DNA of 64,000 nt, from positions 558,001 to 622,000 of the forward strand of contig NZ_CP101988.1 in assembly GCF_024508335.1 (NCBI RefSeq). The letters run 5' to 3'. This DNA comes from Cellulomonas chengniuliangii (GTDB lineage Bacteria > Actinomycetota > Actinomycetes > Actinomycetales > Cellulomonadaceae). This document shows, piece by piece, positions 54,455-63,731 of the stretch. Within the stretch, counting starts at the first letter, position 1, and every line of letters begins with the position of its first letter. The notes beneath the pieces are model-generated. The model saw only the letters and a program-made list of their open reading frames with translations, was not told where the DNA came from and did no database searches. A program made the position numbers and the translations under genes.

Positions 54455-55903
54455 GTGAGCCTTCGCCTGTACGACACCGCCACCCGTGAGGTGCGTGACT
54501 TCGTCCCCGTGGTCCCGGGTGAGGTCGGCATCTACCTGTGCGGTGCGACCGTGCAGGGCGCCCCCCACATCGGGCACATGCGCTCGAGCGTCGCCTTCGA
54601 CGTCCTCGTCCGGTGGCTGCGCCGCAACGGCAACCGGGTCACCCTCGTGCGCAATGTCACCGACATCGACGACAAGATCCTCGCGAAGGCGGACGCCGCC
54701 GGGGAGCGGTGGTGGGCGTGGGCGCTGGCCAACGAGCGTGCCTTCACCCAGGCCTACGACGCCCTCGGGGTGCTGCCGCCCACCTATGAGCCGCGCGCCA
54801 CGGGCCACGTGCCCGCGATGGTCGAGCTGATGCAGGCGCTCGTCGACGGCGGCCACGCCTACGTCGCGGGCGAGGGAGACGTCTACTTCGACGTCCGGTC
54901 CTTCCCCGAGTACGGCTCGCTGACCAACCAGCGCCTCGACGACATGGTGGCCACCGCCGACGGCGCCGGCGACGACGCGGACGTCACGAAGCGGGACCCC
55001 CGCGACTTCGCCCTCTGGAAGTCGCCCAAGCCGGGCGAGCCCGAGACGGCGTCCTGGGACACCCCGTTCGGTCGGGGCCGTCCCGGCTGGCACCTCGAGT
55101 GCTCCGCGATGGCCCGGCGGTACCTCGGCTCCACCTTCGACATCCACGGCGGCGGCCTGGACCTGCGGTTCCCGCACCACGAGAACGAGCAGGCGCAGTC
55201 CCGTGCCGCGGGGGACGGGTTCGCCCGGTACTGGCTGCACAACGGCTGGGTCACCCAGGGCGGGGCCAAGATGAGCAAGTCCCTCGGCAACGGGCTGCTG
55301 GTCAGCACGCTGCTCGAGACGACGCCCCCCGCGGTGCTGCGTTACGCGCTCACGGCGGTGCAGTACCGGTCCATGCTCGAGTGGACCCCCGACACCCTCG
55401 GCGAGGCCGAGGCGACGTGGGAGCGGTTCACCGGTTTCGTCGACCGCGCCACCGAGCAGGTCGGCCCGGTGGACGACGACGAGGTGGCCAAGGCCGAGCT
55501 GCCCGAGGGCTTCGTCACCGCGATGGACGACGACCTGAACGTGCCCGCCGCGCTCGCGGTGGTCCACGAGCACCTGCGCGCCGGCAACTCGGCGCTCGCC
55601 GAGCAGGACCTGGACGAGGCCCGTGCCGCGTTGGTCCAGGTGCGCTCGATGCTCGACATCCTGGGACTGGATCCCGGCAGCGCCCAGTGGCGCCGCCAGG
55701 GAGACGACCGCGGGTACTCGGACGCGCTCGAGGCGCTGGTCGCCGCCGAGCTCGCCGCCCGCTCCGAAGCGCGCGCCACGCGTGACTTCGCCACCTCCGA
55801 CGCGATCCGGGACCGGCTCGCCGCCGCCGGCATCCTCGTCGAGGACTCCGCGACCGGCAGCCGCTGGTCGCTCGCGCACCGCAGTGATGAGGTCGAGAAC
55901 TGA
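54455..55903 (+). CDS. cysS: cysteinyl-tRNA synthetase
   Basis: Class I synthetase of 482 residues. Zinc cysteine C29 in [19 protein letters not shown] at 38-41, further zinc ligands in WHLECSAMA and HHENEQAQS, and K272-MSKS-276. The '[13 protein letters not shown]' form is the actinobacterial one. It is the true CysS, not the mycothiol ligase MshC, as judged by length and the C-terminal DALR-like domain. TGATG overlap with rlmB. The cysS-rlmB pair belongs next to ispDF in mycobacteria. Confidence 0.95.
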
Positions 55904-56919
55904 TGCCAGGAAACTCGCAGCGCCGGGGAGCCACCCGCAAGCCCGGCTCGAAGAAGGGCGCGCACGTCGGCACTGGCGGCAAGGGACGGCAGGCCCTCGA
56001 GGGCCGCGGCCCCACGCCCAAGGCCGAGGAGCGCCCCTACCACCCGGCCGCGAAGCGCAAGGCCGCTGCCGAGCGCCGCGGCCCGGTGAGCGGAGGCGCG
56101 CCGAACCGCATGGGACGCACCTCGCGGAGCGCCGCAGGCACCCGCGGGGGCAAGGGCGTCAGCGCCACCCACGAGATCGTGTCCGGCCGGAACTCGGTGG
56201 TCGAGGCGCTCCGCGCCGAGATCCCCGTCCAGACGGTGTACTTCGCCACCCGCATCGAGGCTGACGACCGCACCCGCGAGATCCTGCAGATCGCCACCGG
56301 CCGCGGCTACCCGCTGCTCGAGGTCACCAAGCCCGAGCTCGACCGGCTCACCGACGGCTCGGTGCACCAGGGCGTCGCCATCCAGGTGCCGCCGTACCAG
56401 TACGGCGATGCCGACGACCTCCTCGACGCGGCCGCTCTGCTCGACCAGGCCCCGCTCATCGTGGCGCTGGACGGCGTGACCGACCCGCGCAACCTCGGCG
56501 CGGTGCTGCGGTCCGCAGGCGCGTTCGGCGCGCACGGCGTCGTCGTCCCGGAGCGCCGGTCCGCGAGCGTGACCGCCGCCGCGTGGAAGGTCTCCGCCGG
56601 CGCCGCCGCCCGCGTCCCGGTCTCCAAGGTCACGAACCTGACGCGCACCCTCGAGACCTACCGCAAGGCCGGCTGCTTCATCATCGGCCTGGACGGCGGC
56701 GGGGACACCCCGGTCGCCGACCTGCCGTTCGCCGCCGACCCGTTGGTCGTCGTGGTCGGCTCCGAGGGCAAGGGCCTCTCGCGCCTGGTCCGGGAGCACT
56801 GCGACGCGATCGTGTCGATCCCGATCACCTCGACGACGGAGTCGCTCAACGCCGGCGTCGCCGCGGGGATCGCGCTGTACGAGATCGCCCGGCAGCGTGG
56901 GGCTGCCCAGCAGGGCTGA
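55903..56919 (+). CDS. rlmB: 23S rRNA (guanosine-2'-O-)-methyltransferase RlmB
   Basis: SPOUT (SpoU) methyltransferase modifying G2251 of 23S rRNA. Residues 1-85 are a basic, glycine-rich RNA-binding extension; then a substrate-binding domain (HEIVSGRNSVVEALRAE) and the knotted catalytic domain with motif 1 DGVTDPRNLGAVLRSAGAFG, motif 2 VVGSEGKGLSRLV and motif 3 STTESLNAGVAAGIALYEI. 338 residues, longer than E. coli's because of the extension, which is common in actinobacteria. Confidence 0.93.
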   Translation: MPGNSQRRGATRKPGSKKGAHVGTGGKGRQALEGRGPTPKAEERPYHPAAKRKAAAERRGPVSGGAPNRMGRTSRSAAGTRGGKGVSATHEIVSGRNSVVEALRAEIPVQTVYFATRIEADDRTREILQIATGRGYPLLEVTKPELDRLTDGSVHQGVAIQVPPYQYGDADDLLDAAALLDQAPLIVALDGVTDPRNLGAVLRSAGAFGAHGVVVPERRSASVTAAAWKVSAGAAARVPVSKVTNLTRTLETYRKAGCFIIGLDGGGDTPVADLPFAADPLVVVVGSEGKGLSRLVREHCDAIVSIPITSTTESLNAGVAAGIALYEIARQRGAAQQG

Positions 56920-57022: not shown

Positions 57023-57610
57023 TCAGATCTCATAGTGGTCCGCGAGCTGGGTGTACGCCCGGTCGTGGTAGACCAGCGGACCTCCCTCGGCGCTCGTGTC
57101 CGAGGTGATCGCCTGGACGGTCACCAGGTGGCTGTCGCCCACCGCGATGCGCTCGAGCACCCGCCCGTGCACCCACGTCCGACTCCCGGTGAGCACGGGC
57201 TCCCCGCCGGCGAGCCGGATGTGCTCGGTGCCCGCGAACCGGTCGATCCCGTGCGTGGCGAACCGCGTCGAGAGGTCGGCCTGGCCGTCGCCCAGGAAGT
57301 TGACCACCACAGTGGCGGCCCTGGCGAGCGCTGGCCAGCTCGAGGACGTCGACGCGATCGAGAACGCCAGCACCGGCGGGGCGGCCGACACCGAGATCAC
57401 CGACGTCGCGGTGAACCCCACCGGGAGCCCGGTGCGCGGGTCCGCGAGCGTGACGACCGCGACCCCGGCCGGGTGGCGGCGGAACACCTGCTTGTACTGG
57501 TCCGGGGACAGGTGCGGCTCGTCATGGGCCCGGACGGGAGCCGCCGGGCGGGCCTCAGCGAGGCCCCGCGTCCCGGCGCACTGTGCGCGCACCGGCGTGT
57601 CGGCGGTCAT
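57023..57610 (-). CDS. flavin reductase family protein (FMN-binding split barrel)
   Basis: A 195-residue flavin reductase of the DIM6/NtaB (HpaC-like) group: FRRHPAGVAVVTLADP, VGFTATSVISVSAAPPVLAFSI, VNFLGDGQADLSTRFA, and GSRTWVHGRVLERIAVGDSHL. It reduces FMN or FAD with NAD(P)H for use by a separate monooxygenase. Start at ATG 57610, overlapping the stop of the FMN reductase (ATGA). Both reductases are expressed behind a SAM-IV riboswitch and face the operon of a luciferase-like monooxygenase that needs their product. Confidence 0.88.
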   Translation of the reverse strand: MTADTPVRAQCAGTRGLAEARPAAPVRAHDEPHLSPDQYKQVFRRHPAGVAVVTLADPRTGLPVGFTATSVISVSAAPPVLAFSIASTSSSWPALARAATVVVNFLGDGQADLSTRFATHGIDRFAGTEHIRLAGGEPVLTGSRTWVHGRVLERIAVGDSHLVTVQAITSDTSAEGGPLVYHDRAYTQLADHYEI

Positions 57611-58179
57611 GCGCGGACCGCCGCTGCGTCGAGCAGCGGGCCATGGGCGTCCACCCAGGTCGCGACCACCTCGTCCAGGTCGGCGAGCTGGGCCTCCGTG
57701 AGCGCGAGCGCGCGGGTGGGGACGCTGGCCCCCAGCTCGACGAGCAGCGGCCGCAGATGCACCTCCCCGGCCAGGGAATGCGCGGGACTCCCCGAGACGA
57801 CGAGCGGCACGGCGACGACGCCGCGCAGGCCGTCTGCCCCGTACAGGTCGAGGAAGGCCTTCAGCAGCCCGGTGTAGCTGGCCTTGTAGACGGGGGTGGC
57901 GACCACCGCGACGTGCGCGGACGCCAGCCGGCGCAGCGCGTCGTCGACGGCCGGCCGGGTCGCCGCGAAGAGCTCGGGCGCCAGGTCCGCGAGGTCCACG
58001 GTGGGGGTGAGCCCGCCGCCGAGCCGTTGGGCGATCGCCCGGGACAGCGACTCGGCGGCGACCCGGGTGCGGGACCCGGGTCGCGGGTTGCCGACGACGG
58101 GGAGGACGTGGAGTCGGGAGCGCGACGCGCTCGACGCGTCGGTCGCAGGGGTGGTCGGGGTGACGGCTGACGTGGTCAT
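57607..58179 (-). CDS. NADPH-dependent FMN reductase (SsuE/MsuE-like)
   Basis: A 190-residue flavodoxin-like reductase: HVLPVVGNPRPGSRTRVAA (phosphate loop), VVATPVYKASYTGLLKAFLD and the late VVSGSPAHSLAGEVHLRPLL are the SsuE/MsuE family marks. It supplies reduced FMN to desulfonation-type monooxygenases. ATG 58179 has GAGGA about 8 nt upstream. First gene after a SAM-IV riboswitch on the minus strand, so it should be off when S-adenosylmethionine is plentiful. Confidence 0.9.
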   Translation of the reverse strand: MTTSAVTPTTPATDASSASRSRLHVLPVVGNPRPGSRTRVAAESLSRAIAQRLGGGLTPTVDLADLAPELFAATRPAVDDALRRLASAHVAVVATPVYKASYTGLLKAFLDLYGADGLRGVVAVPLVVSGSPAHSLAGEVHLRPLLVELGASVPTRALALTEAQLADLDEVVATWVDAHGPLLDAAAVRA

Positions 58180-58311
58180 CTGATGGTCCTCGGATGTGCC
58201 GACGGATCCGTGCGCGGCGTCGCCCTCCACCCGGCTCGACGCAGACCGAGGAGGAGCGGGACGACCGCGCAGGTCGTCGAGGTCGATCACGCTTGCCGTG
58301 TCCCTCAACAC

Positions 58312-58409
58312 GGCCAGGTCGTCTCCCGGAGCACCCCGCCGTGACGCTGGGGTTGCTGGCCAGCAAGCCGGGGCTGTGCTCGTGCGAGCGCTGGCACTCA
58401 AGACCTCGG
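58312..58409 (-). ncRNA. SAM-IV riboswitch
   Basis: Read on the minus strand the segment has, in order, AGGTC, TTGAGTGCCAGCG, AGCCCCGGCTTGCTGGCC, AGCAACCCC, CGGCGGGGTGCTCCGGG and GACCT. AGGTC/GACCT closes the outer helix P1, GCCAGC/GCTGGC forms P2, and ACCCC/GGGGT forms P3; CCCCGG and CCGGG can make the pseudoknot. These match the conserved SAM-IV core known from actinobacteria (variants of AGUGCCAGC, CCGGCUUGCUGGCC, GGGGUGCyCCGGG). Downstream stems CCGTGT/ACACGG (58294-58313) and ACGACC/GGTCGT (58261-58277) could be the expression platform. A candidate -10 lies at 58418-58413. Confidence 0.82.
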
Positions 58410-58479
58410 CAAGTTGTAGCACGCCGTCTTCGCGACGGGCGACCGGTGTCTCACCACACGACCCGAAACGCCCCATCTG

Positions 58480-58509
58480 TTGACGGCCCGTCGACGTTCG
58501 CCCTAACGT
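58480..58509 (+). promoter_or_regulatory. promoter of the sulfur-compound operon
   Basis: -35 TTGACG (58480-58485), an 18-bp spacer and -10 TAACGT (58504-58509). The -10 ends 7 nt before GTG 58517, so transcription should begin on the leader peptide's start codon. Confidence 0.65.
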
Positions 58510-58516
58510 CCGTCGC

Positions 58517-58594
58517 GTGAGCACCTCCACGAACCGCCGCCACGGCCTGAGCGATGTCGTCTTCGCTGCCGTCGCGCGCTGTCGCTGTTGTTGA
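58517..58594 (+). CDS. leaderless cysteine-rich leader peptide (attenuator)
   Basis: A 25-residue ORF (start VSTSTNRRHGLSDVV, end ARCRCC, then TGA). Three of the last four codons are TGT (Cys), the less used cysteine codon in this genome. With the -10 box 7 nt before its GTG it has the form of the actinobacterial leaderless leader peptides in which ribosome stalling on cysteine codons senses cysteine supply (described upstream of mycobacterial sulfur genes). It precedes the monooxygenase/ABC operon by 335 nt, so cysteine shortage probably raises that operon. Confidence 0.7.
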   Translation: MSTSTNRRHGLSDVVFAAVARCRCC

Positions 58595-58929
58595 CGCTCG
58601 TCTGCTGATCTCCGGAACGGCAGGCGGGGTCCAGGTCCCGCACGCGCCCGGATCCCCGCCCGACAGCGGCTCACACCCTCCCCGCCCTCGCGTCTGACGA
58701 CGCTCGGTGGGCGAGCCGAGGCTCATGCCGCCCGCGCTCAGCCGCACCGCCACCGCCGGCGCGCGCACGTCCGGCCCCTGGGCTCCGGCCCGCACCGCCC
58801 TCCCACGCCGCCGCTGTGCGCGGTCGCGTCAGGGCGCGCCCTTCCCCAATCCCGCATCCGCGAACGCGCCGTGCCCCGTGCTGCCAGCAGCCGGCCGCGC
58901 TGGATGCCGCCCGTGGTCGAGGAGACCCC
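58595..58929 (+). other. 5' leader between the Cys leader peptide and the monooxygenase gene
   Basis: 335 nt without a recognisable gene. It is C-rich over several stretches (around 58655-58690, 58740-58760 and 58790-58815) and lacks a clear intrinsic terminator with T-run. C-rich, G-poor RNA is the type of sequence Rho uses, so untranslated leader RNA might be terminated by Rho when the peptide is completed. This is inference. Confidence 0.4.
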
Positions 58930-60249
58930 ATGTCGCACCCACCTGTCCCGCTGTCCGTGCTGGACCTGAGCCCGGTCTCGTCCGGGAGCACCCCGGCCGA
59001 CGCGCTGCGCCGCACGCTCGACCTGGCCCAGGCGGCCGAGCGAGCGGGGTACCAGCGGTACTGGCTCGCCGAGCACCACCTCAACCCGGGGGTGGCCGGC
59101 GCCAGCCCTGCCGTGGTCGCCGCCCTCGTCGCGCAGGCCACCACGGCCATCCGCGTCGGCTCGGCGGCCGTGATCCTGGGCAACTACTCCCCGCTGCAGG
59201 TCGCCGAGCAGTGGGGGACCATCGCCGCGCTGCACCCGGGGCGGGTGGACCTGGGGATCGGCCGCTCGGGCATCGGTCGATCGGGCGGCGCGGGCCGTCC
59301 AGGCGCCACGCCCCCCGGGCGGGCGGACGCCGGAGGGGTGGCCCCCGCCGAGCAGTCGCCCCCGGCGCCGGCTGGCGCCCCGGTCACGCCGGTTCCCGGT
59401 GATGCGGGGAGGTGGCAGGTCGTGGACGGGGTGGTGATCCCGCCGGTCCGGCCCACGGCCTACGACCCCGCGCGGCTCGCACTCCAGGCCCGCCTGCTCG
59501 GGCGCGCCCCCGGCGACGGGGACGGGTTCGGCGCCGATGTGCGGGACATCCTCGCGTTCTTCGCGGGCACGTACCGGGCGCCCGAGGGGCGGCCCGTCGC
59601 AGTGACCCCCGCCGAGGGCACGGATGTGCAGCTGTGGGTGCACGGGTCCAGCGCGGGGCCGAGCGCTCAGCTCGCCGGCGAGCTCGGCCTGCCGTACGGC
59701 GCGAACTACCACGTCGCGCCCGCGACGCTCCTGGAGTCGGTGGCGGCGTACCGGGCGGCCTTCACGCCGTCCGCTGACTTCCCGGAGCCCTACGTCATCG
59801 TCTCGGTGGACGTCGTGGTCGGGGCCGACGACCAGGCAGCGCGGGCGCTCGCGGCCGGCTACGGGCCGTGGGTGCAGTCGATCCGCAGCGGCCACGGCGC
59901 CATCCCGTACCCGGACGTCCACGAGGCCCGCGCGATCCAGGCGGGCTGGGCGCCGGAGGACCACGCGGCCGTGCGCGACCGCACCGAGACCCGGCTCGTG
60001 GGCTCGCCGCAGACGGTCGTCACCCGTCTTGCGGCACTGCAGCGCCTCACTGGCGCGGACGAGCTGCTCGTCACCACGGTGACGCACCGCCACGAGGACA
60101 GGGTCCGCAGCTACGAGCTGCTGGCGGAGGCGTGGGCCGCGCAGGCGACGCCGGCCGTCGCGCACGTCGAGCACCAGCACGCGGACGCGCTCGACGCGGC
60201 CGCCACCGCGGCCACCACGGAGCTGCTGCGCGCGGCGGCACGGTCATGA
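58930..60249 (+). CDS. luciferase-like FMN-dependent monooxygenase (LLM family)
   Basis: A 439-residue flavin monooxygenase of the luciferase-like class, using reduced FMN from a partner reductase and O2. Family marks are PLSVLDLSPVSSG at the start, YQRYWLAEHHLNPGVAGASP, RVGSAAVILGNYSPLQVAEQ and HPGRVDLGIGRS, then YGANYHVAP. Between about residues 115 and 160 there is an insert rich in Gly, Pro and Ala not usual for the barrel. The closest known type is the YtmO/'MsnO8' group near cystine transporters. ATG 58930 has a strong AGGAGA site; the stop overlaps the next gene (ATGA). Confidence 0.88.
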   Translation: MSHPPVPLSVLDLSPVSSGSTPADALRRTLDLAQAAERAGYQRYWLAEHHLNPGVAGASPAVVAALVAQATTAIRVGSAAVILGNYSPLQVAEQWGTIAALHPGRVDLGIGRSGIGRSGGAGRPGATPPGRADAGGVAPAEQSPPAPAGAPVTPVPGDAGRWQVVDGVVIPPVRPTAYDPARLALQARLLGRAPGDGDGFGADVRDILAFFAGTYRAPEGRPVAVTPAEGTDVQLWVHGSSAGPSAQLAGELGLPYGANYHVAPATLLESVAAYRAAFTPSADFPEPYVIVSVDVVVGADDQAARALAAGYGPWVQSIRSGHGAIPYPDVHEARAIQAGWAPEDHAAVRDRTETRLVGSPQTVVTRLAALQRLTGADELLVTTVTHRHEDRVRSYELLAEAWAAQATPAVAHVEHQHADALDAAATAATTELLRAAARS

Positions 60250-61847
60250 CCGTGCAGACGCGGCCCGTCGGGTCGGCAGGGGTGGCGGACCTCGAGGTGC
60301 GCTACGTGCACCAGAGCGACCCACTGGTCCGCCCGCTGCTGGACGACCTTGCCCGGGAGTACGCCGACCGGTACGAGAGCCTGCGGGAGACGATCGCCGA
60401 CGACCTGTCCCGGTACCCGGCCGAGGAGTTCGCCGGCCCTGACGGCGCCCTGGTGCTGCTGCTCTCCGACGGCGCGCCCGTCGCCGGCGGCGCCTTCCGC
60501 CGGTACGACGACACGACCGCCGAGCTCAAGCGGATCTGGACCCGCTCCGACCAGCGTCGCCGGGGCCTCGGCCGCCGGGTGCTCGAGGAGCTCGAACGGG
60601 AGATCGGCGCCCGGGGGTACACCCGCGTGTACCTCACGACGGGGCCGCGTCAGCCCGAGGCGTGCGCGCTGTACCTGTCGACGGGCTACGCGGCGCTGTT
60701 CGACGTGGCCGCCGATCCCGAGGAGCTCGACGGTCCCCTCCCGTTCGAGAAGCGCCTGCGACCGGCGGCTCCCGAGGACGTTGCGGTCACGACCGGCGCG
60801 ACCGGGCCCGCCCTCGCCCCGCGACTGGCCGCGACGGCGGTGGACCTCGACGCGCGCGTCGTCCCCGCGCGCCACGTCGGACGGTGGCTCGCCACCGCGG
60901 GGACGCTCGTGCTGCTCGCGATGGTGATCAGCTCGCTGACCACGAACGCCCGCTGGGAATGGTCGATCGTCTGGCAGTACCTGACCTGGCCGTCGGTGCT
61001 CGACGGCCTGTGGGGCACGGTGCGGCTCACGGCGACGGCCGCGGTGATCGGCTTCGGGCTGGGCACGGTCCTGGCGCTGATGCGCCTGTCGCCCTCGCCG
61101 CTGCTCCGGGCGGTGTCCTGGACCTACACCTGGGTGTTCAGGTCGGTGCCGCTGATCCTGCAGCTGCTGCTCTGGTACAACCTCGCGTACCTGTACCCGA
61201 CCCTGTCGCTCGGCGTCCCGTTCGGCCCCGAGCTCCTGCAGTTCGGCACGCTGGACGTCATCGACAAGTTCGGGGCGGCGGTGCTCGGGCTGGGCCTGTC
61301 GCAGGCCGCGTACTCGGCGGAGATCGTGCGCGCGGGAATCCTCTCGGTCGACCAGGGGCAGCACGAGGCTGCCGCCGCCCTGGGCCTGCCCCGTCGCCGC
61401 CAACAGCGCCGGATCATCCTGCCGCAGGCCATGCGCACCATCGTGCCGACCGCCGTCAACGAGATCATCGGCCTGGTCAAGGGCACGTCGGTGGTCTACG
61501 TGCTCGCGTACGGCGAGCTGTTCTACATCGTCGGGGTGATCTACGGCCGCAACCAGCGCGTGGTGCCGCTGCTGCTCGTCGCGGGCATCTGGTACCTGCT
61601 GCTCACCACCGTCATCACGGTGGTCCAGTACTACGTGGAACGGCACTACGCGAAGGGCGCCCTGCGCACGCTCCCGCCCACACCGGTGCAGCGCGTCCGC
61701 TGGGCCGCCGGGGTGCTGTGGTCCCGGGTCACCGGGCGGCCGCTGCCGCAGGGCCTCCCGCCCGGCCACCTGGCCCGGACGTCGCTCGCCTCCCACGTGC
61801 TCGTCCGCAGCCGGGCCACCGCTCAGGGTCGGGGAGGGCAGCTCTGA
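60246..61847 (+). CDS. GNAT acetyltransferase fused to amino-acid (cystine-type) ABC transporter permease
   Basis: A 533-residue fusion without a stop or frameshift between the parts. Residues 1-180 are a GNAT N-acetyltransferase ([19 protein letters not shown], then the acetyl-CoA loop [15 protein letters not shown] and [14 protein letters not shown]). From about 213 it is a polar-amino-acid permease: membrane segments [52 protein letters not shown] and the coupling loop [21 protein letters not shown] near residue 373. ATGA and TGATG overlaps at the ends. Separate GNAT and permease genes occur in the Bacillus ytmI/tcy operon; here they are one protein. Confidence 0.88.
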
Positions 61848-62617
61848 TGGGGGCGGCAGGGCACGTGGAGGTGCGCGGCGTGCACAAGGCCTTCGGCCCG
61901 CTCAAGGTGCTGCGCGGCGTCGACCTGGAGGTCCGGCCCGGCGAGGTGACGGTGATCCTGGGCCCCTCGGGCTCGGGCAAGTCGACGCTGCTGCGCGCGA
62001 TCAACCACCTCGAGAAGGTGGACCGGGGACTGGTGTCCCTCGACGGCGAGCTGATCGGCTACCGGCGCACGGCACGCGGGACCCTGCAGGAGCTCAAGGA
62101 GCGGGAGGTGCTGCGGCAGCGGTCGCACATCGGGTTCGTGTTCCAGTCCTTCAACCTGTTCCCGCACCTGACGGCGCTCGAGAACGTGGTCGAGGCCCCC
62201 GTGTCAGCGCAGGGCCGGCCGCGGGCCGAGGTCGAGGCCGAGGCGCGCGCGCTCCTCGAGCGGGTGGGACTCGCGGACAAGGCCGACGTGCACCCGCGCC
62301 GGCTCTCGGGCGGGCAGCAGCAGCGTGTGGCCATCGCACGGGCCCTCGCGCTGCGCCCCAAGGTCGTCCTGTTCGACGAGCCGACGTCCGCCCTCGACCC
62401 CGAGCTGGTGGGCGAGGTGCTCGACGTGATCAAGGACCTCGCGTCGTCGGGGACCACGCTCGTCGTCGTCACCCACGAGATCGGCTTCGCCCGCGAGGTC
62501 GCCACCACCGTGGTGTTCATGGACGAGGGGCTGATCGTCGAGCAGGGCACGCCCGCCGAGGTCCTCGAGCACCCCCGGCACGAGCGCACCCGCGCGTTCC
62601 TCGACAAGGTCCTCTGA
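61847..62617 (+). CDS. amino-acid ABC transporter ATP-binding protein (TcyN/GlnQ type)
   Basis: A 256-residue ATPase for polar amino-acid import: Walker [14 protein letters not shown]-loop [18 protein letters not shown], signature [15 protein letters not shown] and Walker [26 protein letters not shown] overlap with the permease fusion. With the fused permease and the binding protein it makes a complete importer; sulfur amino acids such as cystine are the best guess from context. Confidence 0.92.
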
Positions 62618-62723
62618 CCTGCCGTCACCCGACGGCTCCCCAACCCCGGGGCGCGTCCCCGAGGGGCGCCCGCACGCCGTGCGCGCGTCCGCAGTTCCCG
62701 TTCCGACCGAGAGTGAGCTTCCC

Positions 62724-63731
62724 GTGACCGCATCGACCCGACGAGCAAGGCTCGTGACCGCACTGGCCGTCGTGCCCCTGCTGGCGCTCGCCGCGTGCGC
62801 CGGCGCCCAGGCCGGCACGGACGTCGCAGCACCCGAGGACGACGCCGCGAAGGCGAAGGCCGTGGGGCTGCAGATCAGCACCAGCCCGGAGCAGGACAGG
62901 GTGCGCAGCACCGAGAGCCCCGACGCGATCGCCCTGCTGCCCGCCGCCATCGCCGAGCGGGGCGTGCTCAAGGTGGCGACGAGCGCCAGCGGCAGCGCGC
63001 CGCTCACCTTCCTGGCCGACGACGAGAAGACCCCCATCGGCAACGAGACCGACATCGCCCAGCTCGTCGCCGACGCCCTGGGCCTCGAGCTCCGGCTCGA
63101 GGTGCGGGCGTGGGCTGACTGGCCGCTCGCGCTCCAGTCGCAGGACGTCGACGCCGTCATCTCCAACGTGACCGTCACGGAGGAGCGCAAGGAGCTGTAC
63201 GACTTCTCGTCGTACCGCAACGACCAGCTCGGGTGGATCGTCGGGGCCGAGGGCGATGTGGAGGCGATCACCGAGCCGGCGGACATCGCCGGGCTCAAGG
63301 TCGCCGTCGGATCGGGCACCAACCAGGAGAAGATCCTGCTCGCGTGGAACGAGGAGAACATCGCCAACGGGCTAGAACCGATCAAGGACGGGGAGCCGGA
63401 CTACTTCGACAACCTCGCCGACGCGCTCCTCGCGCTGCAGTCCGGGCGCCTCGACGCGTACGTGGGCCCGAACGCCTCGCTGGCGTTCACCGCGGCGTCC
63501 TCGCCGCAGGACTTCCGGATCGCGGGGACGCTCAACGGCGGGTGGCCGCTGACGGCGCAGATCGCGGTGGCCACCCTCAAGGGCGCCGACCTGGCGCCCG
63601 CGGTGACGGCGGCGTTGGCACACGTCTTCGACGACGGGACCTACCTCGAGGTGCTCCAGCGCTGGGGGCTGGAGGGCGAGGCCATCGACAAGCCCGAGAC
63701 CAACCCGCCGGGGTTGCCGAAGACCAGCTGA
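62724..63731 (+). CDS. amino-acid ABC transporter substrate-binding lipoprotein
   Basis: A 335-residue family 3 solute-binding protein. Signal VTASTRRARLVTALAVVPLL with lipobox LAAC; mature domain with GVLKVATSASGSAPLTFL, GNETDIAQLVADALGLELRL, SQDVDAVISNVTVTEERKEL-YDF and VAVGSGTNQEKIL. GTG 62724 was chosen because it gives a complete signal peptide just after GAGAGTGAG; 45 nt earlier another start is possible. Last gene of the operon. The 106-nt gap before it has a weak GGGCGC/GCGCCC hairpin. Confidence 0.9.
   Translation: MTASTRRARLVTALAVVPLLALAACAGAQAGTDVAAPEDDAAKAKAVGLQISTSPEQDRVRSTESPDAIALLPAAIAERGVLKVATSASGSAPLTFLADDEKTPIGNETDIAQLVADALGLELRLEVRAWADWPLALQSQDVDAVISNVTVTEERKELYDFSSYRNDQLGWIVGAEGDVEAITEPADIAGLKVAVGSGTNQEKILLAWNEENIANGLEPIKDGEPDYFDNLADALLALQSGRLDAYVGPNASLAFTAASSPQDFRIAGTLNGGWPLTAQIAVATLKGADLAPAVTAALAHVFDDGTYLEVLQRWGLEGEAIDKPETNPPGLPKTS

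Follow-up and report, generated by a model that had tools for sequence, protein, structure and literature searches.

A Cellulomonas flavin reductase and oxygenase-transporter locus with a SAM-IV riboswitch and a cysteine-ended leader peptide that stand in series in many related actinobacteria

Results

The locus and its two RNA elements

We describe a locus at positions 57023-63731 of a stretch of Cellulomonas chengniuliangii DNA that runs from base 558001 to base 622000 of a single-contig genome of 3.57 Mb; this whole stretch of 64 kb is the window of our analysis. Two flavin reductase genes on the reverse strand, preceded by an S-adenosylmethionine (SAM) riboswitch of the SAM-IV class, diverge there from a short leader peptide and the genes for a luciferase-like monooxygenase, a fusion of a GNAT acetyltransferase with a permease, an ATP-binding cassette (ABC) ATPase and a substrate-binding lipoprotein (Table 1). 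Profile matches were scored with Pfam, NCBIfam/TIGR and Rfam models against their curated cut-offs or gathering scores. All of these elements were located, and with them the parts list of the original prediction, made from the letters alone, was borne out: the six genes match Pfam models at the positions it had given, the riboswitch exceeds its gathering score, and the Cys-Arg-Cys-Cys leader and the one-frame fusion recur in two related genomes. The nearest named relatives among the fetched loci, Cellulomonas timonensis (L085) and C. cellasea ET82 (L084), conserve every element of the locus.

Table 1. Positions of the features discussed, in window coordinates; the last row, prefixed C1, is a second locus of the same genome
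Feature	Position	Strand	Details
Flavin reductase, Flavin_Reduct domain	57023-57610	-	PF01613, 104.6 bits, E 7e-30
NADPH-dependent flavin mononucleotide (FMN) reductase, SsuE/MsuE-like	57607-58179	-	PF03358, 84.9 bits, E 6e-24
SAM-IV riboswitch	58284-58405	-	RF00634, 73.1 bits (gathering score 38), E 4.6e-11
Putative promoter, TTGACG-18 nucleotides (nt)-TAACGT	58480-58509	+	7 nt before the GTG; read from the sequence
Leader peptide MSTSTNRRHGLSDVVFAAVARCRCC	58517-58594	+	GTG start; 25 codons, ends Cys-Arg-Cys-Cys (TGT CGC TGT TGT), then TGA
Predicted pairing of the Cys-codon stretch	58581-58670	+	58581-58590 with 58661-58670, hairpins enclosed; minimum-energy and centroid folds
Luciferase-like monooxygenase, MsnO8 family	58930-60249	+	PF00296; TIGR03558, 314.8 bits (cut-off 166.95)
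GNAT-permease fusion, single open frame	60246-61847	+	PF00583, residues 36-148; PF00528, residues 269-468
ABC ATPase	61847-62617	+	PF00005; best NCBIfam model TcyN (NF008428), 320.5 bits (cut-off 406)
Substrate-binding lipoprotein, SBP_bac_3	62724-63731	+	PF00497
NtaA/DmoA pair and DUF1684-like gene	C1:260290-263887

A riboswitch and a cysteine-ended reading frame in series

A point missed by the original prediction is that, in relatives, the SAM-IV riboswitch and a Cys-ended open reading frame (ORF) stand one behind the other on the same strand. A covariance model (R1) built from 21 SAM-IVs of the relatives detected 81 SAM-IVs in 68 loci. Of 51 loci whose upstream region was usable, 44 have the riboswitch on the strand of the operon and, 3' of it, the Cys-ended ORF. 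This ORF, between the riboswitch and the first gene, is short, is led by a Shine-Dalgarno sequence and carries its Cys codons at the end, the peptides ending, for instance, in ...VTCCR in Cellulosimicrobium, in ...LTRSCCR or ...SCRCR in Cellulomonas, and in ...LVGRPxxDLxRTDSALCR in the Geodermatophilaceae type. The AUG falls 15-66 nt behind the aptamer, with a median of 36 (41 tandems).

By a rule picked after looking at the leaders, a Shine-Dalgarno-led ORF with a C, CR or CRR end is present in 47/51 loci, as compared to 0.4 expected from dinucleotide shuffles and 3/51 on the reverse strand. At least two Cys among the last five residues were found in 26/51 loci (0.1 in shuffles, 0 on the reverse strand), and at least two among the last eight in 29/51 (0.2 and 3, respectively). 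When the riboswitches were sorted by hand from their position into 45 that precede this operon and 36 elsewhere in the same loci, a Cys ORF followed 44 of the former and one of the latter by either of two rules, and 42 of the 45 by the C/CR/CRR rule alone. The single operon riboswitch that lacks a leader by either rule belongs to L143, whose ORF ends CRRR. The single other riboswitch with a Cys leader (MRALHDATRRPVVHHAAPCCR) lies at 19029-19138 of L097, before Dpp-type transporter genes; genes of this type share a run with the present operon in other genomes.

The last 18 codons of the leaders retain most of the peptide via synonymous changes in 17/17 Geodermatophilaceae-type loci; all 17 end CTC TGT CGC TGA, a sameness that is partly by construction as these leaders were fetched with an exact 12-base string, which all 17 loci tried contained.

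For the 51-locus count operon starts were set by hand and 17 of the 68 loci were left out, namely the two close relatives with their probably leaderless arrangement (L084, L085), loci with a cut upstream region or short contig (L090, L092, L099, L103, L113, L115, L121), Promicromonospora loci in which the start lies beyond Dpp genes (L096, L110, L141), loci of another layout (L111, L145-L147) and, without good reason, L149, which carries the leader. Departures from the series order occur. Four of the five named Oerskovia loci (L086, L088, L089, L150; not that of O. flava, L093) have the leader and no SAM-IV, three Promicromonospora loci (L034, L036, L038) have a Cys-rich ORF and no SAM-IV, and no SAM-IV was found in two Sanguibacter loci. 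The window's clade has the Cys leader alone before the operon, with the SAM-IV on the side of the reductases.

The leader peptide of the window

In the ORF scan the leader is the single ORF of the window with at least three Cys among its last seven codons. The pattern CxCC followed by TGA has five matches genome-wide, as has a reversed control pattern, and the four matches other than the leader overlap predicted genes; the motif alone was therefore rejected as evidence. The leader nevertheless stands above chance because two related genomes have this 25-codon leader, with its putative promoter, ahead of their copies of the operon, and the leader, the putative promoter and some 100 nt 3' of the leader are near-identical across the three. 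The spacing of 7 nt between promoter and GTG suggests a leaderless mRNA, and the leader is thus probably translated from one. In the window's clade and in the relatives alike, a conserved short Cys-ended ORF lies upstream of sulfur genes. Two Geodermatophilaceae-type leaders resemble the putative leader peptide of NF042934 (cis_reg_atten) at 18.4 and 18.3 bits, below its cut-off of 27, and neither the window leader nor seven other leaders tested gave a match.

Reductases, monooxygenase and transporter

The flavin reductase scored below the cut-off of every NCBIfam equivalog, and its gene adjoins that of the FMN reductase in the relatives too. The FMN reductase reached 94.3 bits with TIGR03567, under the cut-off of 164; its start is uncertain, with in-frame GTG codons further upstream that reach the 3' end of the riboswitch. 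Both reductases were found in 18/48 Cellulomonas-type loci. Their SAM-IV (58405-58284 in reading direction) is the sole Rfam match above gathering score within the window and one of two SAM-IVs detected genome-wide; it is present in both close relatives, and no Cys leader ORF was found 3' of it in the window, L084 or L085. Adjoining the reductases, cysS and a SpoU/TrmH-type methyltransferase gene (54455-56919) keep this position in both close relatives.

In the MsnO8-type monooxygenase the TIGR03558 match is split by a Gly/Pro/Ala-rich stretch (59269-59481), as it is in the L025 homologue.

The fusion protein combines an Acetyltransf_1 domain, in a GNAT part of approximately residues 1-180, with a BPD_transp_1 domain, and its permease half scores above the cut-off of TIGR01726, a polar-amino-acid type. 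The TcyN model and those of the cystine permease and the cystine-binding protein all score under their cut-offs on this transporter. A local sequencing error does not explain the fusion, since the frame is uninterrupted in C. timonensis and C. cellasea ET82, at 83-85% identity. One-frame fusions were found in 2 of the 57 loci with a nearby GNAT gene (L084 and L085; 62 were tested, five without GNAT), and an independent motif check found them in 2 of the 56 named loci holding both motifs (78 examined, 75 with the permease motif); for the frame comparison, in which the frame of L144 is unreliable, permease places were taken from the in-frame query only. A further set of 36 loci, 29 with both motifs, gave fusions in L021 and L022 only, again the genomes of the two close relatives, and among 248 genomes of the order eight had a match at E <=1e-110, the window's own alone being full length without a stop. 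The fusion as a widespread trait was thus rejected. As no one-frame fusion occurs in the other loci tested, it looks young and confined to the window's clade.

The substrate-binding protein (SBP) has the residues G248-P249-N250 (GPN) where its best-scoring solved relative in alignment, 4zv1 (AncQR), has TDN. These three residues and R155, in a T-E-E-R-K motif, are invariant in 19/19 aligned sequences, and GPN occurs in 61/62 readable SBP frames (31/62 by a strict pattern, 61/62 with Phe allowed before the motif; L146 and L147 have no readable frame), the exception, L142, showing a frame break. The Asp that GPN replaces is, we assume, the residue that normally holds the ligand's amino group, and a plain free alpha-amino acid is therefore disfavoured as ligand. 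An N-modified amino acid would still fit, as would a carboxylated organosulfur compound that has no free amino group.

A larger gene set in relatives and a second locus

The original prediction proposed a search for its seven-gene neighbourhood in other actinobacteria. The exact order was found only in the window, C. timonensis and C. cellasea ET82, but the same genes, with additions and in other order, occur more widely, named carriers including Cellulomonas, Oerskovia, Cellulosimicrobium, Promicromonospora, Sanguibacter, Krasilnikoviella and Isoptericola. In these Cellulomonas-type relatives GNAT, permease, ATPase and SBP sit in a far longer run of genes, whose composition differs between genera and which adds two NtaA/DmoA-family monooxygenases, a DUF1684 protein, an N-methyltryptophan-oxidase-like flavin adenine dinucleotide (FAD) enzyme and a nitroreductase, and also holds the MsnO8 enzyme, a rhodanese, SsuD-like and CE1758-like monooxygenases and sometimes a Dpp-type transporter. 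The MsnO8 gene is present in 42/48 Cellulomonas-type loci, some of which are cut short. In the 17 Geodermatophilaceae-type loci (Klenkia, Blastococcus, Modestobacter, Geodermatophilus and kin; Geodermatophilaceae is presumably the family of most of these hosts) GNAT, permease, ATPase and SBP lie behind the SAM-IV. In Paeniglutamicibacter and Arthrobacter (L145-L147) a related transporter cluster has two SBP matches, an NtaA pair and a GNAT gene on the opposite strand, and model R1 found no SAM-IV there.

The window's genome holds an NtaA/DmoA pair at a second locus, one member over the TIGR03860 cut-off of 279.7 (430.8 bits) and the other under it (199.8 bits). A SAM-I-like element before this locus (C1:259.9-263.9 kb) falls slightly short of the gathering score (43.1 against 44.4 bits), and the corresponding match in C. 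timonensis exceeds it at 45.7 bits. DUF1684 (PF07920) is a regular member of the organosulfur set (e.g., L105 8431-9294), and where the set is divided it goes with the NtaA/DmoA pair; in the window's genome the DUF1684-like gene (C1:263015-263887) was assigned by eye. No deacetylase gene lies beside the window's operon, and two TIGR01891 amidohydrolases over cut-off elsewhere in the genome are candidates for a deacetylating activity. In a further run of this genome (C1:273.8-277.6 kb; L081 11822-15568), with gene names given by eye, a SAM-I riboswitch precedes the genes for a MetZ-like sulfhydrylase and a rhodanese together with a small ORF, and the group diverges from a class-V aminotransferase gene behind a 110-bit SAM-IV, an arrangement repeated in C. 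timonensis and C. cellasea ET82.

Discussion

A probable organosulfur uptake-and-oxygenation gene set

We read the window's locus as one half of the split organosulfur gene set of the Cellulomonas relatives, and on balance we favour the view that it is a compact, split form of an actinobacterial set for organosulfur uptake and oxygenation, with the gating proposed below. An organosulfur compound is the likely substrate. The original prediction had the locus import, acetylate and oxidatively cleave a sulfur amino-acid derivative; by sequence a sulfur-linked module for import and oxygenation with a GNAT enzyme stands, but the GPN site speaks against a plain free alpha-amino acid.

The likeness to the B. 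subtilis ytmI (Cmo) operon on which that prediction leaned holds in part. We used the Tcy gene list, and the ytmI gene list with its regulators, as general background. By class, the two share a GNAT enzyme, a Tcy-like ABC transporter, an MsnO8-class monooxygenase (a family, TIGR03558, to which CmoO presumably belongs) and a need for a flavin reductase. Unlike ytmI, the window's locus has a riboswitch and a leader peptide, a GNAT domain fused to the permease, and one permease with one SBP, and its cluster has neither a gene of the NtaA/DszA class, which we take to be that of CmoJ, nor a deacetylase, the NtaA/DmoA pair being at the second locus. The window's locus is also like the B. subtilis yxe/scm operon for S-(2-succino)cysteine, which, in the accessible part of its description (PMC9706529), joins an acetyltransferase, a flavin monooxygenase and an ABC transporter; the window's cluster differs from it in having no deacetylase gene and in that its monooxygenase is of the MsnO8 family.

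Could the locus then be a true member of the ytmI type? In the pathway as outlined in the accessible part of PMC10863075, S-alkylcysteines are salvaged by N-acetylation, sulfoxidation, C-S cleavage and deacetylation, and the enzyme classes found here fit those steps. On this reading an S-alkylcysteine would be taken up, N-acetylated, sulfoxidized by a CmoO-type and cleaved by a CmoJ-type enzyme, and deacetylated to cysteine. The GNAT, the Tcy-like ATPase and the MsnO8-type monooxygenase do share one operon, B. subtilis is among the control genomes with TIGR03558 (7 over the cut-off, or 10 with any match), and NtaA/DmoA-class enzymes and amidohydrolases are encoded elsewhere in the window's genome. 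The cluster itself, however, has no CmoJ-like gene and no deacetylase, its single permease serves a single SBP without the usual Asp for an amino group, and the additional SsuD-like, CE1758-like and FAD-oxidase genes of the relatives have no counterpart among the stated Cmo steps. We consider full membership unlikely.

Alternatively, the locus might scavenge a sulfonate, a sulfone or another organosulfur compound that is not an amino acid, with the GNAT enzyme acting on an amine or thiol intermediate instead of on an imported S-alkylcysteine. The near-universal GPN (61/62 SBP frames), the Arg of TEERK that is invariant in the 19 aligned sequences, and the NtaA/DmoA-class and SsuD-like monooxygenases and rhodanese of the large gene set are consistent with this. 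The transporter type, however, is that of polar amino acids, the SsuD-like protein of the relatives lies far under the SsuD cut-off (187.8 vs 518.2 bits), and one motif is insufficient to read the specificity of an SBP; here too we are doubtful, and to a like degree. That the neighbours are unrelated, a general amino-acid transporter happening to lie beside flavin enzymes with a Cys leader by chance, is very improbable, for although the CxCC-stop pattern is as frequent genome-wide as its backward control, the synteny across many genera, the leader statistics and the sequence conserved in three genomes all speak against it.

A proposed two-input RNA gate

Returning to the organosulfur gene set, we speculate that its transporter operon is controlled by an RNA gate with two inputs, a SAM-IV expression platform that would control translation of a Cys-sensing short ORF before the operon, and that in the window's clade this gate was pulled apart over two divergent transcripts and the acetyltransferase fused to the transporter that it serves. 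We rate the chances of this proposal as about even; it includes that the Cys-leader gate belongs to the transporter-bearing operons, with the reductase operons and lone oxygenase operons of the same loci having a SAM-IV alone. The original prediction had SAM and cysteine status gating the two halves separately. The RNA elements do lie on two halves in the window's clade, but in the 44 relatives' loci they are in series, so the split gating of the window's clade looks derived.

Cysteine leader peptides are known in actinobacteria, as the accessible parts of PMC1262725 and PMC4633059 describe, and Rho is discussed for such leaders in the former; polycysteine leaderless small ORFs of mycobacteria are treated in PMC4633059 and by Canestrari 2020 as cited in PMC9094748. 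To judge from these sources, the leaders described here resemble them in being short Cys-ended ORFs upstream of sulfur genes with no intrinsic terminator found, and that of the window's clade also in being probably leaderless; they are unlike them in preceding an organosulfur oxygenase/transporter operon and, in the relatives, in being Shine-Dalgarno-led and usually placed behind a SAM-IV. As far as the accessible texts go, the B12 riboswitches (PMC11260477) and the Mbox (PMC12810186) of M. tuberculosis likewise act on a translated upstream ORF; there that ORF is not described as a sensor of a second metabolite, whereas the ORF of the relatives ends in codons of a second nutrient. SAM-IV and leader peptides are named at separate genes in the portion of PMC8079986 available to us; the metL leader that precedes metNIQ in S. 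lividans, with several methionines and threonines, ends ...RCMCRRMCAF in the same source and could sense cysteine too. SAM riboswitches and cysteine leader peptides are thus individually known, and what may be new here is their arrangement in series; a literature search, conducted mostly without subscription papers, found no description of such a tandem, which is weak evidence of novelty.

Several observations weigh against the reading we prefer. At the window's leader region a consensus sigma-70 scanner found no promoter-like site; the predicted leader fold is weakly better than shuffles (z -1.57, 13/200 shuffles folding equally well or better); and a scan for intrinsic terminators found no terminator-like site, so that translational coupling or Rho-dependent control would be more likely. 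A first automatic scan, in which operons were broken at Dpp genes, gave a Cys ORF in 20/61 loci and in 4/61 on the reverse strand, and as the loci are related the counts are of non-independent events. There being no SAM-IV on the window's operon strand, the tandem logic is not directly applicable to the window itself. The canonical Asp for an amino group is lacking in the SBP; tblastn found no MsnO8 gene in any of the 17 Geodermatophilaceae-type loci with 10 kb flanks, and the enzyme set behind the same sensors therefore differs there; and before the second locus of C. cellasea ET82 no SAM-I reached threshold.

Proposed mechanism and significance

In the scenario we favour, ribosomes short of cysteine would stall when they reach the Cys codons of the leader peptide, whose mRNA is probably leaderless, and this stalling would let transcription or translation continue into the operon, from the monooxygenase gene through that of the GNAT-permease fusion to those of the ATPase and the SBP. 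The organosulfur ligand would then be imported, probably acyl-modified by the GNAT domain at the inner face of the transporter, and oxygenated by the MsnO8-type enzyme. At low SAM, the divergent SAM-IV would permit synthesis of the reductases and hence the supply of reduced FMN, and the SAM-I-like element at the second locus would permit that of the two NtaA/DmoA-type oxygenases, which might complete the release of sulfur. In the tandem relatives, a shortage of SAM would open the SAM-IV and a shortage of cysteine would stall ribosomes on the ORF that follows; as the two are in series, the transporter operon should open fully only if both SAM and cysteine are low. Reductase operons would respond to SAM only, and the transporter operon would need one signal in the window's clade and both in the tandem relatives.

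If this is true, the arrangement would be a natural two-metabolite gate kept across the Cellulomonas relatives and the Geodermatophilaceae, in which one mRNA would read both end products of sulfur assimilation, and it would bear on how methionine and cysteine supply are integrated. The gate may also serve as a regulon marker for unassigned flavin monooxygenases, for DUF1684, whose co-occurrence with the NtaA/DmoA pair is a lead to its function, and for a possibly unusual transporter ligand, and the fusion of an acetyltransferase to a permease hints at an import that is coupled to modification.

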